Below are positions 46,607 through 52,887 of a stretch of 64,000 nt of DNA, piece by piece. This DNA comes from Luteitalea pratensis (lineage in GTDB: Bacteria; Acidobacteriota; Vicinamibacteria; Vicinamibacterales; Vicinamibacteraceae). A program made the translations under genes and the position numbers. Positions within the stretch are counted from its first letter, which is position 1. Each line of letters opens with the position of its first letter. The notes under the pieces were generated by a model. The model saw nothing but the letters and a program-made list of their open reading frames with translations. It was not told the DNA's origin and ran no database searches. The stretch covers positions 4,251,001-4,315,000 of the forward strand of contig NZ_CP015136.1 in NCBI RefSeq assembly GCF_001618865.1, given 5' to 3'.

Positions 46607-49255
46607 GTGTCCGATTCGATCCTGACAGCTCCGCCCGCCTCGTTGACCCCGGCGATGCGTCAGTTCCAGGACGCGAAGCGCCAGCACCCCGACGCCCTGC
46701 TGTTCTTCCGCATGGGCGACTTCTACGAGTTGTTCTACGAAGACGCGGTGGTCGCGTCCCGGGCCCTCGAGCTGACCCTCACGTCGCGCTCGAAGGACGC
46801 CGCCGGAACCGGCATCCCGATGTGCGGTGTCCCGTTCCATGCCGCCGACGGGTACATCACCCGCCTGATCCGCCAGGGATTCAGCGTCGCGATCTGCGAT
46901 CAGGTCGAGGACCCGAAGGCGGCCAAGGGGCTCGTCAGGCGCGAGGTGACGCGCGTCGTCACGCCGGGTACGCTGACCGACGTCGCCTACCTGGATGCAC
47001 GCGCGCCAGCGCTCCTCGCTGCCGTGCTGCCTCCCGGCAAAGGCAGCATGACGTGGGGCTTGGCGTGGGTCGAATTGTCGACGGGCGACTTTGCCGCGAC
47101 CGAGTTCGACGGCGAGGCTGCGGCCACGCTCCTTCGCGAGGAACTCGGCGTGCTGCTGCCGCGCGAGGTGCTGCTCCCAGAGGACGCGGATCTCGATCCG
47201 TTGCGGGCCGACGGCACTCCCCTCCCCGCGGTGACGCGCCGGGAGCGGTGGCAGTTCTCTGTCGACGCAGCGCAACGCGCGCTCACCGAGCAGTTGCAGA
47301 CGACCGGCCTCGCAGGCTTCGGCCTGGACGGCCATCCATGCGCGATCGGCGCCGCCGGAGCCCTCGTCCAGTACCTGCGCGATACGCAGAAGGGGGACCT
47401 GACGCATGTCCGCAGCCTCGCGTATCGCGAAACCCGTGATGGCCTGATCATCGACGCGACAACGCTGCGCCACCTCGAGGTCCTCGCCTCGACCGAGGGC
47501 GATCGCCAGGTCTCACTGCTCGGCGTGCTGGACGAGACGGTCACGACCATGGGAGCCCGCCTGCTGCGGGCCTGGCTCACGAAACCGCTGGTGGCACTCG
47601 ACGCCATCCGCGACCGTCTCGATGCCGTCGAAGACCTGGCCTTCAGGTCGGTGGAGCGCGGCACCCTGCGCGAGACGCTCGCGCAGGTCCATGACGTCCA
47701 GCGCCTCGTGGCACGAGCGGCCCTGGGCACGGCAGGTCCGCGCGACCTCGTCGCCCTGGCGCGCTCGCTCGCCGCCGTCCCTGGCCTGCGCGAGACGCTC
47801 GGTACCCTGCAGGCACCGCGGCTCGGGCAACTGTGCGCCGAGCTGGACGATCTGCCCGCGCTCCGAGAGCGAATCACCGCGACACTCGCCGACGACCCGC
47901 CGATGCTCGCCCGCGATGGCGACGTCGTCCGTGACGGCGCGGACCCGGAGGTCGATCGGCTGCGGCACCTCAGCCGCAGCGGCAAGGGCGACATCTCGGC
48001 GATGGAAGAGGCCGAGCGGCAGCGCACCGGCATCTCGTCGCTGAAGATCCGGTTCAATCGCGTCTTCGGCTACTACATCGAGATCTCCAGGTCGAACCTG
48101 CACGCGGTCCCGCCCGACTACATCCGCAAGCAGACCATTGCCGGTGGCGAGCGGTTCATCACGCCGACGCTCAAGACGTACGAAGAGCAGGTGCTCCATG
48201 CCGATGAGCACCTCGTCACGCTCGAAGTGGCGATCTTCGAGGCGTTACGTCGCGAGGTCGCAACAGACGCCCCGGCGCTGCAGCGCACCGCGCTCGCGCT
48301 CGCCACGCTCGACGTGCTGGCGACCTTCGCCGACGGCGCCGCCCGCCGCAACTACAGCAAGCCGCACCTGCACGACGGCGACGACCTCTCGATCGTCGAG
48401 GGCAGGCACCCGGTCGTCGAGACGATGACCCGCGAAGCGTTCGTCCCCAACGACCTCTCGCTCGACGGCACCACGCAGCAGTTGCTCGTCATCACCGGGC
48501 CCAACATGGGCGGCAAGAGCACGTACCTGCGACAGACGGCCCTGCTCTGCCTGATGGCCCAGGCCGGCGCCTTCGTGCCGGCGCGGCAGGCCAAGCTGCC
48601 GGTCGTCGACCGCATCTACGCCCGCGTCGGCGCCGCCGACAACATCGCGCGCGGGCAGTCGACGTTCATGGTGGAGATGCAGGAGACCGCGAGCATCCTC
48701 AACACGGCGACCTCGCGCAGCCTCGTCGTGCTCGACGAGATCGGCCGGGGCACGTCGACCTTCGATGGCCTCAGCATCGCCTGGGCCGTGGCCGAGCATC
48801 TCGCCACGAGCCTGAAGGCGCGGCCGAAGACGCTGTTCGCCACGCACTACCACGAGCTCACGGACCTGGCCGACGCGCTGCCGGGAGTCGCCAATGCGCA
48901 TCTGCTGGTGCGCGAATGGCAGGATCAGATCGTCTTCCTGCGCAAGGTCGTGCCGGGACGATCGGACCGCAGCTACGGCATCCAGGTGGCGCGACTTGCC
49001 GGCCTCCCGGCCAGCGTGATCCGCCGCGCGCGCGAGATCCTCACCGGGCTCGAACAGGACGAACTGGCACGAGGCGGACGCCCGACGATCGCCGGCGCGG
49101 CCACGCGCGAAGGCCCGCAGCAGCAGCTCGGGCTCTTCCAGGTGCCGGCCGACGAACGACTGCGTGAACGCCTGCGCGAGATCGACGTCAACGCGCTCAC
49201 CCCCTTGCAGGCGCTGACGATCCTTGCCGCGCTCAAGGACGAGGCCGAGGCATGA
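46607..49255 (+). CDS. mutS: DNA mismatch repair protein MutS
   Basis: An 882-residue MutS. The mismatch-binding domain opens MRQFQDAKRQHPDALLFFRMGDFYELF with the conserved Phe-x-Glu reading head (DFYELFYED). Connector, lever and clamp domains follow (FNRVFGYYIEISRSN). The ATPase domain has Walker A ITGPNMGGKSTYLRQTALL, STFMVEMQETA, LVVLDEIGRGTSTFDGLSIA and ATHYHELTDL. GTG at 46607 (VSDSILTAPPASL) is preferred to the far-upstream open frame; ATG at 46655 is also possible. The stop overlaps the next gene by ATGA. Confidence 0.95.
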   Translation: MSDSILTAPPASLTPAMRQFQDAKRQHPDALLFFRMGDFYELFYEDAVVASRALELTLTSRSKDAAGTGIPMCGVPFHAADGYITRLIRQGFSVAICDQVEDPKAAKGLVRREVTRVVTPGTLTDVAYLDARAPALLAAVLPPGKGSMTWGLAWVELSTGDFAATEFDGEAAATLLREELGVLLPREVLLPEDADLDPLRADGTPLPAVTRRERWQFSVDAAQRALTEQLQTTGLAGFGLDGHPCAIGAAGALVQYLRDTQKGDLTHVRSLAYRETRDGLIIDATTLRHLEVLASTEGDRQVSLLGVLDETVTTMGARLLRAWLTKPLVALDAIRDRLDAVEDLAFRSVERGTLRETLAQVHDVQRLVARAALGTAGPRDLVALARSLAAVPGLRETLGTLQAPRLGQLCAELDDLPALRERITATLADDPPMLARDGDVVRDGADPEVDRLRHLSRSGKGDISAMEEAERQRTGISSLKIRFNRVFGYYIEISRSNLHAVPPDYIRKQTIAGGERFITPTLKTYEEQVLHADEHLVTLEVAIFEALRREVATDAPALQRTALALATLDVLATFADGAARRNYSKPHLHDGDDLSIVEGRHPVVETMTREAFVPNDLSLDGTTQQLLVITGPNMGGKSTYLRQTALLCLMAQAGAFVPARQAKLPVVDRIYARVGAADNIARGQSTFMVEMQETASILNTATSRSLVVLDEIGRGTSTFDGLSIAWAVAEHLATSLKARPKTLFATHYHELTDLADALPGVANAHLLVREWQDQIVFLRKVVPGRSDRSYGIQVARLAGLPASVIRRAREILTGLEQDELARGGRPTIAGAATREGPQQQLGLFQVPADERLRERLREIDVNALTPLQALTILAALKDEAEA

Positions 49256-50829
49256 CTTCCCGCCGGGTTCCGCGTGCCGGGTACCGGGTGCGAACGATCG
49301 CCGACGCCCTGCGCAGCCACCGAGTGCTGGTGCTACTGGCATTGGCAGTGCTCGGCGGCGCCTGCCGTGAGCGTAGCGCGCAGCAGGATCCGGCTGTCAT
49401 CGTCGGCATCGCGGTCGGCCCGACCAATCTCGACCCGCGCGTGGGCAGCGACGAGGCGAGCCAGCGTGTCCATCAGCTGCTCTACGCGTCGCTTGTACGC
49501 CTCGACGACCAGCTCCAGGTCGTGCCGGAACTGGCCGAGCGCCTCGAAGCCAGGGACACGACGACGTTTGTGGCACACATGCGCGCCGGTGTGCGGTTCC
49601 ACGACGGCTCGGCGCTTGACGCGGAAGACGTCGCCTACACGTTCCGCAGCTTCCTCGACAAGGCGTTCCTGTCGCCGCGCAAGGGCGCCTACGCGCAGCT
49701 CGCGTCGGTCGACGTCGAGGACGCGCGCACGGTCGTCTTCCACCTCAAGGAGCCGTTCGCGTCGTTTCCGGTGAACCTCGTGATGGGCATTGTCCCTGCC
49801 GGTACGCCGGCCGGAGCGCCCGCGCATGTCGGCGCGGGGCCCTACCGCTTCGTCCGCATGCAGTCCGATGACCGGGTCGAACTCGCCCCGTACGCCGGCT
49901 ACTTCGAAGGCGCGCCGAGCAATGCGGGGGTGATCCTGCGCGTCATTCCCGATGACACGATGCGCGGCCTCGAACTGCGCACCGGTGCCATCGACCTCGT
50001 CATCAACGACCTGGCCCCCGACATCGTCAGGACGCTGCAGCGCGAGGATCGCATGCAGGTGGTGACCGCGCCGGGACTCGACTACGCGTACATCGGCATG
50101 AACCTGCGCGACCCGCTGTTGAAGGACGTGCGGGTGCGGCGCGCACTGGGGCTCGCCGTCAACAGTGCCGCCATCATCGAGCATCTGCGCCGGGGTCTCG
50201 CGGTGCCGGCCACCGGCATCATCCCGGCGATGTCATGGGCGAACGCCGACGACCTCCAGCCGACTCCCTACGATCCGGAGGAGGCAGGCCGACTGCTGGA
50301 TGCGGCCGGCTATCCGGACCCGGACGGCGCCGGTCCGGCCCCGCGATTGCGGCTGACGCTCAAGACCTCGACCGCCGAGTTCGTGCGCCTGCAAGCCGCC
50401 GTGATCCAGCAGGATCTTGCGCGCATCGGCGTTGCCGTGGACGTACGCACCCATGAGTTCGCAACGCTCTACGCCGACGTCCTCAAGGGACGCTTCCAGC
50501 TCTTCACCCTGCAATGGGTCGGCGTGTCCGATCCCGACATGCTGCGTCGCGTCTTCCATTCCTCGCAGATGCCACCGGCCGGCTTCAACCGCGGCTTCTT
50601 CAGTGATCCCGAGGTGGACGCGCTGATCGAGCGCGCCACGACCACGGCGGACCTGACCCTGCGGCGGGCGCAGTACATCGACGTGCAGCACCGCCTGTTC
50701 GCGGCGGCCCCGTACGTGAGCCTCTGGACGAAGGTCAACGTCGCCGTGGCGCAGCCATGGGTGAGCGGCGTGCACCTCACACCGCAGGCCAGCTTCACGA
50801 CGCTGCGCAACGTCACGAAACGAAGGTAG
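49252..50829 (+). CDS. ABC-type peptide/oligosaccharide-binding lipoprotein (SBP family 5)
   Basis: A 525-residue extracytoplasmic solute-binding protein. A signal peptide with lipobox VLGGAC (Cys near residue 38) follows a charged N-terminus. The SBP_bac_5 fold shows GPTNLDPRVGSDEASQRVHQ, FVAHMRAGVRFHDGSALDAEDVAYTFRS, APGLDYAYIGMN and FFSDPEVDALIERA. Such proteins deliver peptides, sugars or nickel to DppBC-like permeases, but no permease or ATPase gene lies near, so this is an orphan. The ATGA overlap with mutS implies coupling to an unrelated repair gene. The stop codon TAG lies inside the 50825-50902 repeat element. Confidence 0.88.
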   Translation: MTSRRVPRAGYRVRTIADALRSHRVLVLLALAVLGGACRERSAQQDPAVIVGIAVGPTNLDPRVGSDEASQRVHQLLYASLVRLDDQLQVVPELAERLEARDTTTFVAHMRAGVRFHDGSALDAEDVAYTFRSFLDKAFLSPRKGAYAQLASVDVEDARTVVFHLKEPFASFPVNLVMGIVPAGTPAGAPAHVGAGPYRFVRMQSDDRVELAPYAGYFEGAPSNAGVILRVIPDDTMRGLELRTGAIDLVINDLAPDIVRTLQREDRMQVVTAPGLDYAYIGMNLRDPLLKDVRVRRALGLAVNSAAIIEHLRRGLAVPATGIIPAMSWANADDLQPTPYDPEEAGRLLDAAGYPDPDGAGPAPRLRLTLKTSTAEFVRLQAAVIQQDLARIGVAVDVRTHEFATLYADVLKGRFQLFTLQWVGVSDPDMLRRVFHSSQMPPAGFNRGFFSDPEVDALIERATTTADLTLRRAQYIDVQHRLFAAAPYVSLWTKVNVAVAQPWVSGVHLTPQASFTTLRNVTKRR

Positions 50830-50902
50830 GGACGCCTCTCCGAGGCGTCCCTCGCCTCGACGTGAACTGCGGACATGGACCGCTCGGAGAGCGGTCCCTA
50901 CC
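50825..50902. repeat. BIME-like double-hairpin intergenic repeat
   Basis: A 78-bp element with terminal inverted repeats GGTAGGGAC (50825-50833) and GTCCCTACC (50894-50902). It contains two perfect hairpins. The first pairs AGGGACGCCTC with GAGGCGTCCCT around tcc (50828-50852). The second pairs GGACCGCTC with GAGCGGTCC around gga (50877-50897). The TAG in the left terminus is the stop of the solute-binding protein (50827-50829), and the TAG in the right terminus, read on the minus strand, is the stop of the hydrolase (50900-50898). The layout resembles paired REP sequences and would terminate transcription from both sides. Confidence 0.75.
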
Positions 50903-51725
50903 AACCAAGCCACTCGGCGAGCAGTTCCACCACCACCTCGGGCGACTCGGCGTGGATCCAATGCCCGCCCTCGCGCTGGTGAAGATGCACGTGCGCCGCC
51001 CCTGCTCGCGGGTGTGCCTGCAACTCGACGAGCCGGGCGACGACCGCCGGCGAAATCACACTGGATTCGGTCGCCTTGAGCACGTGGATGTCATGCCTGG
51101 CCGCGCCAGGGTCGAGAACGTGCCACAACGACGTCTGGAAGAACTCGTGGAGCAGGCGCTCCATGACGTCGAAGTCGAGGCGCCATCGGAACCCATCGGG
51201 ATCGTGGACCAGGTTCGTCGACATCCATTGCGCGACCCCGGTGCTGAATCCACCGGCCTCGATTCCCGTGATCGCGGCCTGGCGCGATGGGAACGTCGCT
51301 GGCAGCGCCCGGACGATGCCGAGCATCTCCCAAGCGCTTCCGGACGGCGACTTGGCTTCGGGCGTCGAGTCGATCACCCAGGTCTGGAGCGTTCTGGTCG
51401 ATTGCCGGGCGGCATGGGCGAGCGCGACCTTGCCACCGAACGAATGCCCGAGCACCGCATCAGGCTGCACCCCCTGCTCGACGCCCCACGACTCGATATC
51501 GCCAGCCAGCGCGTCAAGCGTGCCTGCTTCCGGCCCTGGATGCGCATCGCCGTGGTGACGCATGTCGGCGAGCCAACAACTCCAGTCCGGCCGGCGTTCG
51601 ACGAGGAGCCGCGCCACCGCCAGCCAGTTCCTGCCGCGGCCGTAGATGCCGTGGAGCATCAGGAGCTGCCGCGTACCGGACTCGGCGCCTACGCGCCTGG
51701 CCACCATCGGCGAGCGTGACGTCAT
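50898..51725 (-). CDS. Alpha/beta-hydrolase fold protein
   Basis: A 275-residue hydrolase. It has QLLMLHGIYGRGRNW (the HG oxyanion region), the nucleophile elbow AVLGHSFGGKVALAHA (GHSFG) and a final catalytic His in HLHQREGGHWIHAE. The acidic residue is probably in the DPGAARHDIHVLKA region. This is the general fold of YbfF-like esterases; substrate is unknown. ATG at 51725 is chosen because the upstream frame is repeat DNA; ATG at 51707 is possible. The stop lies in the 50825-50902 element. Confidence 0.85.
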   Translation of the reverse strand: MTSRSPMVARRVGAESGTRQLLMLHGIYGRGRNWLAVARLLVERRPDWSCWLADMRHHGDAHPGPEAGTLDALAGDIESWGVEQGVQPDAVLGHSFGGKVALAHAARQSTRTLQTWVIDSTPEAKSPSGSAWEMLGIVRALPATFPSRQAAITGIEAGGFSTGVAQWMSTNLVHDPDGFRWRLDFDVMERLLHEFFQTSLWHVLDPGAARHDIHVLKATESSVISPAVVARLVELQAHPRAGAAHVHLHQREGGHWIHAESPEVVVELLAEWLGW

Positions 51726-51824
51726 CACCGACACGGTATCCTTGAACGCGGCCCCCGTCACGCCGGGGTACTGACGCCGCGGCGCATGGCCGGGCTCGGA
51801 GAGTCGGCTGTATCTGCGGACGCG

Positions 51825-51881
51825 ACTCCGACTCCCGACTCCCAACTCCCGACTCCCGACTCCCGACTCCCGACTCCCGAG
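51825..51881. repeat. Heptamer tandem array (ACTCCCG) before the DUF72 gene
   Basis: Eight near-identical copies of actcccg run over 57 bp, the first 6 nt long and the third reading actccca. They are preceded at about 51780-51810 by ggcgcatggccgggctc and a tcggagag core. The array ends 5 bp before the GTG of the DUF72 gene, leaving no room for a ribosome-binding site. A shorter copy of the same arrangement sits at 53092-53200. Confidence 0.7.
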
Positions 51882-51885
51882 TAGT

Positions 51886-52887
51886 GTGAACGACGACCAG
51901 CTCTCGCTCTTCGACCTTACGCCGCCTCCGCGCGGACGCGACGATGAGACCAACGTGTCGGAGACGGACTGGCCGGCGGAGGTCCGCGCCCTTGGCGAGC
52001 GACTTCCCGCTGGTGTCCGTTTCGGCACCAGCAGCTGGAGTTTCCCTGGCTGGGCCGGCCTCGTCTATCGTCGGCCGCGCACACAGGCCGAACTCGCGCG
52101 CGAGGGCCTGCGCGAGTACGCCCGCTATCCGCTGTTCGGCACCGTCGGCATCGATCGCAGCTACTACGCGCCGCTGACGGGCGAGGACCTCAAGCGCTAC
52201 GCCGCGCAACTGCCTGCGGGCTTTCCATGCTGCGCGAAGGTTCCCGCGATGTACGCCTCGCCCGTGCTACCCGGTAGCGGCCGCGGCGCAGAGGCCCTTC
52301 CCAATCCGGACTTCCTCTCCGCCGGGGGATTCCTGGCCGACGTGGTCCAACCGTTCCACCTGCACTTTGCCCGGCATCTCGGCCCGTTCGTGCTCGAGAT
52401 TCCCCCGGTGCCGCCGGAGGTCCGGCTCGACCCGTCGGCGTTTGCCGACCGGCTCGGCCGATTCCTGGACGCACTCCCGGACAGTTGCCCGATCTCGGTC
52501 GAACTGCGTGATCGGCGACTCATCACACCCGCCTACGAGGCGGTGCTGAACCAGTACGGGGCCGCGCACGTCCTCAACTATTGGTCGGCCATGCCGTCGC
52601 CCCGGGAACAGGCGGGCATGCTCGACGTGACACGTGCGCCGTTCACGGTCGTGCGTCTCCTGCTCCGTCCCGGCACGCGCTACGAAGCGCGGCGCGAAGA
52701 CTTCCGCCCGTTCAACCGCATCGTCGACCAGAACGACGTACTGCGCCGGGACGTAACGCGGCTGATCAGCGACGCGACGGGGCGGCAGCAGCCGGTGTAC
52801 GTGCTGGTGAACAACAAGGCGGAAGGGTCGGCGCCGCTGACGATCCGCGCGCTCGCCGAGCAACTCGTCGCAGAAATGCAGCTGTAG
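51886..52887 (+). CDS. DUF72 family protein
   Basis: A 333-residue TIM-barrel protein of the DUF72/YecE family. The motifs GVRFGTSSWSFPGW, GTVGIDRSYYAPLTGEDLKRYA, CAKVPAMYASP, FADRLGRFLDALP and SVELRD match. Related proteins bind or process RNA or DNA by genetic evidence, but the reaction is unknown. GTG at 51886 begins VNDDQLSLFDLTPPPRGR. A start inside the array is unlikely. It lies between two copies of the intergenic repeat. Confidence 0.85.
   Translation: MNDDQLSLFDLTPPPRGRDDETNVSETDWPAEVRALGERLPAGVRFGTSSWSFPGWAGLVYRRPRTQAELAREGLREYARYPLFGTVGIDRSYYAPLTGEDLKRYAAQLPAGFPCCAKVPAMYASPVLPGSGRGAEALPNPDFLSAGGFLADVVQPFHLHFARHLGPFVLEIPPVPPEVRLDPSAFADRLGRFLDALPDSCPISVELRDRRLITPAYEAVLNQYGAAHVLNYWSAMPSPREQAGMLDVTRAPFTVVRLLLRPGTRYEARREDFRPFNRIVDQNDVLRRDVTRLISDATGRQQPVYVLVNNKAEGSAPLTIRALAEQLVAEMQL

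Follow-up and report, generated by a model that had tools for sequence, protein, structure and literature searches.

We are highly confident that the 78-base element between a solute-binding protein gene and a hydrolase gene belongs to the GTAG-class REP dimers (BIME/REPIN), as one copy of a short non-autonomous repeat that was presumably dispersed in the Luteitalea genome by a cognate RAYT (REP-associated tyrosine transposase) and whose copies, presumably selected for frame, close genes. The element lies in the window, which is the whole stretch of 64 kb that was analysed (4251001-4315000 of a genome consisting of one contig, C1, of 7,480,314 bases (7.48 Mb)). The features of the element and its two neighbours are as follows (window positions).

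50825-50902, no strand assigned: GTAG REP dimer (BIME/REPIN), an inverted REP pair with the GTAG ends outward, from the sequence and the genome copies of the full pattern
50826-50851, plus strand: REP 1, GTAG with a 9-bp stem and a 3-base loop (GTAGGGACGCCTCTCCGAGGCGTCCC), genome site C1:4301826
50827-50829, plus strand: TAG of REP 1, the in-frame stop codon of the solute-binding protein gene
50876-50901, minus strand: REP 2, GTAG with a 9-bp stem and a 3-base loop (GTAGGGACCGCTCTCCGAGCGGTCCA), from the sequence
50898-50900, minus strand: TAG of REP 2, the in-frame stop codon of the hydrolase gene
49252-50829, plus strand: gene for a family 5 extracellular solute-binding protein of 525 aa (SBP_bac_5, 4.9e-76; matches of 78-87% identity in four same-genus genomes)
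50898-52028, minus strand: alpha/beta hydrolase ORF, 376 aa as listed (Abhydrolase_6, 8e-13, residues 122-368)

Structure of the element and its repeat family

The element is bounded by perfect 9-base terminal inverted repeats (GGTAGGGAC at 50825-50833 and GTCCCTACC at 50894-50902) and consists, in order, of GGTAGGGACGCCTCTCCGAGGCGTCCC, a spacer of 24 bases and an inverted GGTAGGGACCGCTCTCCGAGCGGTCCA. Both stems are perfect, with 9 bp right behind GTAG, and the first reaches 10 bp when the G of GTAG is counted. According to the rule given in PMC6006769, a GTAG REP carries GTAG or GTGG 0-2 nt 5' of a hairpin with a stem of 7-20 bp and a loop of 2-5 nt; in both halves of the element, GTAG directly abuts a 9-bp perfect stem with a 3-nt loop, and the two halves are inverted with GTAG outward, which is the arrangement of a BIME or REPIN. 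The RNA fold of 50815-50912 had an energy of -48.3 kcal/mol versus a shuffled mean of -31.6 (z = -4.7), and none of the 200 shuffles was as low. No Rfam family matched 50400-51400 at E <= 1. The solute-binding protein ORF terminates in CGA AGG TAG and the minus-strand hydrolase ORF in GGT TGG TAG, with each TAG inside the element. The sequence-only reading, which had placed the element and its termini at these positions, described two perfect hairpins and taken the TAG of each terminus as the stop codon of the neighbouring gene, was therefore correct on all of these points when the sequence was read again.

To the question of whether the element belongs to a repeat family, the genome gave a clear answer. 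The sequence GGTAGGGAC occurred 298 times (164 + 134) genome-wide versus 51 times (22 + 29) for the reversed control, and the full hairpin pattern occurred 186 times (110 + 76) versus 0 for the control, a high copy number as is typical of GTAG REPs. In 59 relatives, including four of the same genus, the full pattern was matched once in total, in G001. There is practically no chance that the element is a single palindrome without a family: it is the only such element in the window, but its genome copies refute this reading. The search of the genome and its relatives that had been proposed earlier thus bore out a dispersed REP/BIME-type repeat, described beforehand as a mobile or duplicated element that would have to be regarded as a lone palindrome if it were found nowhere else.

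The placement of the copies was analysed with a strict hairpin filter in a contiguous 1.2 Mb, which yielded 24 clusters: 14 single copies, 7 simple outward pairs, one six-pair array, one '-+' and one '+--'. Twelve of these lay between convergent genes, 9 between tandem genes, 1 between divergent genes and 2 within predicted genes, so that the repeat is mostly extragenic and found in convergent or tandem spacers, as is usual for GTAG REPs. Convergent gene pairs were enriched (12/24 clusters versus 132/831 gene pairs, p = 1e-4; p = 0.001 by intergenic bases).

Several other arrangements of the repeat were seen. Whole-dimer REP arrays were present at C1:4605336-4606353 and C1:832446-833067, repeating every 177 and 175 bases, respectively. 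Tandem 18-base units, each made of the first REP half and a short tail (GGTAGGGACCGCTCCGTT and similar), adjoin a complete REP at C1:4055461-4055577 and C1:2350029-2350127 (L052 and L042, respectively) and look like repeated copying of the REP 5' half. Among the 100 of 186 places listed, 55 were in 3.455-4.124 Mb and 31 in the first 3.45 Mb; the copy density near the RAYT described below, provisional on these 100 places, is approximately nine times that of the first 3.45 Mb. A strand bias of the copies at 3.5-4.06 Mb was rejected, as minus copies were present once the stretches were read.

RAYT genes and comparison with known REP systems

The sequence-only reading had noted that no REP transposase lies in the window, and indeed no Y1_Tnp/RAYT match was found within the 64 kb; the genome does contain one, a RAYT approximately 301 kb from the element and between copies of the same repeat. 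Pfam Y1_Tnp gave four matches in the genome, one of which, at C1:4000455-4000637, falls in the gene at C1:4000311-4000772 on the minus strand. This gene encodes 154 residues, scored 94.7 bits with NCBIfam REP_Tyr_transpos (cut-off 80) and matched PDB 4er8 (E. coli TnpArep) at 2.2e-8, with the HxH, WQ, EH..R and Y..NPV motifs aligned. Residues W94, Q95, E100, H101 and R104 are discussed in PMC6006769 as part of the GTAG-recognising stretch, and, judging from their spacing, the aligned residues are probably their counterparts. Copies of the repeat lie on either side of the gene, whose own stop is a repeat TAG (TGG TAG), and a tyrosine transposase between copies of the same REP is the arrangement of a RAYT/REPtron. 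We infer that this RAYT mobilises the repeat. Approximately 15 tandem units of 54-56 bases with one GTAG hairpin each take up the whole space that separates the RAYT gene from a symporter gene (L035:9442-10320, C1:3999441-4000320), and these two genes each stop at a repeat TAG.

A second RAYT at 1497499-1497918 was 51% identical to the first and, at 86.1 bits, also exceeded the NCBIfam cut-off. Behind its stop we found, by eye, a GTAGGGCC-type hairpin, imperfect and inversely oriented, that the hairpin filter had missed. RAYT relatives in G001 (62%) and G004 (55%) were flanked by GTAGGG hairpins beginning with GTAGGGCG and GTAGGGCC, respectively, with different stems. In the three genomes examined, each RAYT has its own stem and the GTAGGG head is common to all. 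Across the phylum, the RAYT model matched in 135/199 genomes at E <= 0.001 and exceeded the cut-off in 78; among 14 control genomes, 6 matched and 1 exceeded the cut-off, and the looser count of 135 therefore includes other IS200-type transposases.

Compared with published systems, the Luteitalea repeat shares with the GTAG-tagged REPs/BIMEs of Di Nocera et al. 2013 (PMC3733652) the GTAG head, the short stem, the dimers, the placement at 3' ends and between convergent genes, the nearby RAYT and the provision of TAG stops. It differs from those described there in its stem sequence and its acidobacterial host; section 16 of that paper names acidobacteria for TIR-flanked transposases (TIRYTs). 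As in the REPIN/RAYT systems of Nunvar 2010 (PMC2817692) and Nunvar 2013 (PMC3686654), the transposase gene is flanked by its own REPs and the orthologous RAYTs of related strains are paired with REPs of different classes, an own stem for each orthologous RAYT having been reported in PMC3686654; what differs from the systems treated there is the host phylum and the heads GTAGGGAC, GTAGGGCG and GTAGGGCC within one genus. GTAG plus a hairpin is also the pattern of the E. coli and S. maltophilia REPtrons (PMC8266576). The perfect stem and 3-base loop are like those of the S. maltophilia REP (8 bp, 3 nt), whereas the bulge of the E. coli REPs is absent. Our literature search, which chiefly covered work outside subscription journals, returned no report of a REP/RAYT system in Luteitalea and, among the matches listed, none pairing Luteitalea with 'repetitive extragenic palindromic'. 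What is new is the acidobacterial genus as host, its own RAYT-REP pairs and the counts, whereas GTAG REPs that supply TAG stops were known already (PMC3733652). A GTAG REP and RAYT system with species-specific stems is now placed in Luteitalea (Acidobacteriota).

Stop codons and C-termini at the repeat

GTAG termini that often provide a TAG stop to flanking ORFs were published in 2013 (Di Nocera et al., PMC3733652), and this habit now has a count. Genes were called with a simple codon-usage script in the contiguous 1.2 Mb, which gave 832 genes ending in TGA (511), TAG (246) or TAA (75). In the stretches taken, 186 GTAGGGAC starts had enough flank (a number separate from the 186 full-pattern copies); of these, 140 carried a hairpin, and the outermost copies numbered 87. 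A gene ran toward 54/87 outermost copies, and 22 of these genes stopped at the repeat TAG, while 32 stopped before the copy, 5 at a TAG immediately ahead of it (TAG, then GTAG) and 27 earlier. Since a first frame count, with 22 in frame and none beyond, might have overlooked genes reading more than 250 bases past the repeat, the frame test was redone without this length bias. Among the open coding frames entering an outermost copy, the TAG was in frame in 20/22 with read-through in 2 (p = 3e-8 versus one third); over 12 settings, the result varied from 21/25 to 22/23 in frame, with p between 5e-10 and 4e-7. By comparison, GGTAG outside the repeat was in frame in 30/114. Genes in the other two frames would extend by a median of 56 codons (range, 4 to 463). 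Provision of the stop is thus general among the copies, as nearly every open coding frame that enters one is closed in frame. The base before GTAG was G in 87/87 copies and the base preceding it was A or T in 78/87, which explains the last codons at the 23 stop-providing copies: AGG in 18, TGG in 3 and CGG in 2. In the second family (GTAG[CG]CGTCG...), the stop habit is weaker, since the TAG was used by 2/15 genes.

The most likely course of events is that the RAYT copies the REP dimer to many sites, that copies within genes are lost and that copies in spacers, or over the last codon in the closing frame, persist. Since the GTAG recognised by such transposases holds TAG and the element begins mostly with (A/T)GGTAG, a copy at the extreme 3' end of a gene would, in one of three frames, close it with Arg-stop or Trp-stop. 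In either of the remaining frames, a copy would append a tail to the protein, and most such copies would be removed by selection, the presumed source of the frame bias; between convergent genes the closing condition could be satisfied at both ends of the element. Cleavage depended on GTAG in each of three systems tested, with a strict requirement in E. coli and a looser one in Marinomonas (PMC8266576), and an active element would therefore be expected to retain its TAG and to keep serving as a stop.

We compared the C-termini with those of orthologues, as had been suggested earlier. Of 56 query genes, 33 had an orthologue with an identity of 60% or more, and the C-terminal alignment set comprised 16 genes whose stop is supplied by a GTAGGG hairpin (14 GTAGGGAC and 2 GTAGGGCC) and which have an orthologue in G001. 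The C-termini were nearly unchanged: 7 proteins were equal in length to the orthologue, 5 were one residue shorter, 1 was two shorter, 1 one longer, 1 seven shorter and 1 eleven longer, so that the C-terminus was at most 2 residues from the orthologue end in 14/16. In most cases, therefore, what the element changes is the final one or two residues, and the earlier idea that it fixes C-termini holds to that extent and no further. In particular, both window genes have the same end residue as their G001 orthologues, whose stop is TGA, and the window solute-binding protein is 8 residues shorter than its G004 counterpart. In BLAST tails of the GTAGGGAC genes, exact equality of length was rarer than in controls (6/15 versus 249/337, p = 0.007), from which it follows that the element shifts ends by a residue; agreement within two residues was like that of controls (13/15 versus 301/337). 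Genes stopping before the repeat resembled controls, with 16/18 equal.

The alternative that survives best concerns the origin of the stop and not the identity of the element: the repeat may have inserted just 3' of a native host (W)GGTAG, with the stop and last codon being native. One gene ends CAG ATC AGG TAG followed by the REP, while its G001 orthologue ends CAG ATC AGG TAA without one, and the last codon CGG was retained at 4123989. C-terminal Arg was also commoner in orthologues of repeat-ended genes (7/15 versus 61/337 controls, p = 0.013), which suggests that part of GG-TAG may have been there before the repeat at some sites. However, the proteins one residue shorter than their orthologue, and the small number of equal ones, argue against a native stop, and 35 GGTAG stops in the 1.2 Mb have no GTAGGGAC repeat behind them. 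Additionally, A or T precedes GG at 57/64 copies that provide no stop, which points to sequence borne by the element. We consider a native stop somewhat unlikely, and insertion behind a native GGTAG was dropped as the whole story because 9/16 C-termini differ in length; a stop supplied by the REP dimer remains the preferred reading.

The same gene ends in relatives and the role of the hairpins in RNA

At the junction of the solute-binding protein and hydrolase genes, G001 and G004 have hairpins of another GTAG family (GTAG[CG]CGTCGAC...), of which 38 are present in 1.2 Mb of the genome that contains the window; under the same filter, no GTAG hairpin was found at the G002 and G003 loci (L059 and L058, respectively). 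At 4464376, the window's species and G001 both read GTG AGG TAG with a REP dimer of their own behind it, and these dimers have a loop motif pair in common (GTCCC, then TCTCCGA) with different stems. At 3537716, the gene is closed in both species by its own differently stemmed REP, with the ends 11 residues apart. A stop-providing REP was therefore common to both species in 2/16 genes, one of them this latter gene. Sharing of stop-providing REPs in the contiguous 1.2 Mb was not significant (1 shared, p = 0.15), nor was it for the second family alone (1 shared, p = 0.38). Any GTAG hairpin was shared at 7/339 orthologous gene ends versus approximately 2 expected (p = 0.002), a figure that counts the window junction twice and is raw for spacer length. 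It is conceivable, and in our judgement unlikely, that REP dimers keep their gene-end sites across Luteitalea while their stems are rewritten in place to the sequence cognate to each species' RAYT, with the TAG retained. If such turnover occurred, the repeat family would now be part of the coding ends of its neighbours.

A bidirectional terminator had also been proposed, considered here as an intrinsic one that is retained for this function between convergent genes. Two strong hairpins right behind the stops, the enrichment between convergent genes and one weak terminator-like match at the window element on the minus strand (0.3 expected) are in line with this proposal. On the repeat's own strand, however, none of the 87 outermost copies had at least 5 T in the 8 bases behind the hairpin and 9/87 had 4, so that the T-rich tract of an intrinsic terminator was absent there, and 9/24 clusters lie between tandem genes. 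The proposal was accordingly not supported, and we regard it as quite improbable.

A Rho-dependent role or one in RNA stability is possible for the REP dimer. By analogy with E. coli REPs, the hairpin right behind the stop would probably act as a 3' mRNA stem that shields from decay, and it may slow ribosomes; according to work cited in PMC12306157, translation in E. coli is lowered by REPs that lie less than 16 nt from a stop. The copies form a natural test, outside the gamma-proteobacteria, of how a stem right behind the stop affects the ending of translation and mRNA decay.

Two further repeats were observed. A 7-base repeat, CGACTCC, is present in 8.4 copies at window positions 51823-51880, within the listed hydrolase ORF and upstream of its Abhydrolase_6 domain; the true start of the hydrolase is probably further in than listed, downstream of this repeat. 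A string resembling it (gggagtcggg) stands behind a gene in G001, where several spacers also contain gaaatctgaaatttgaaattg-type repeats, possibly another short repeat family.
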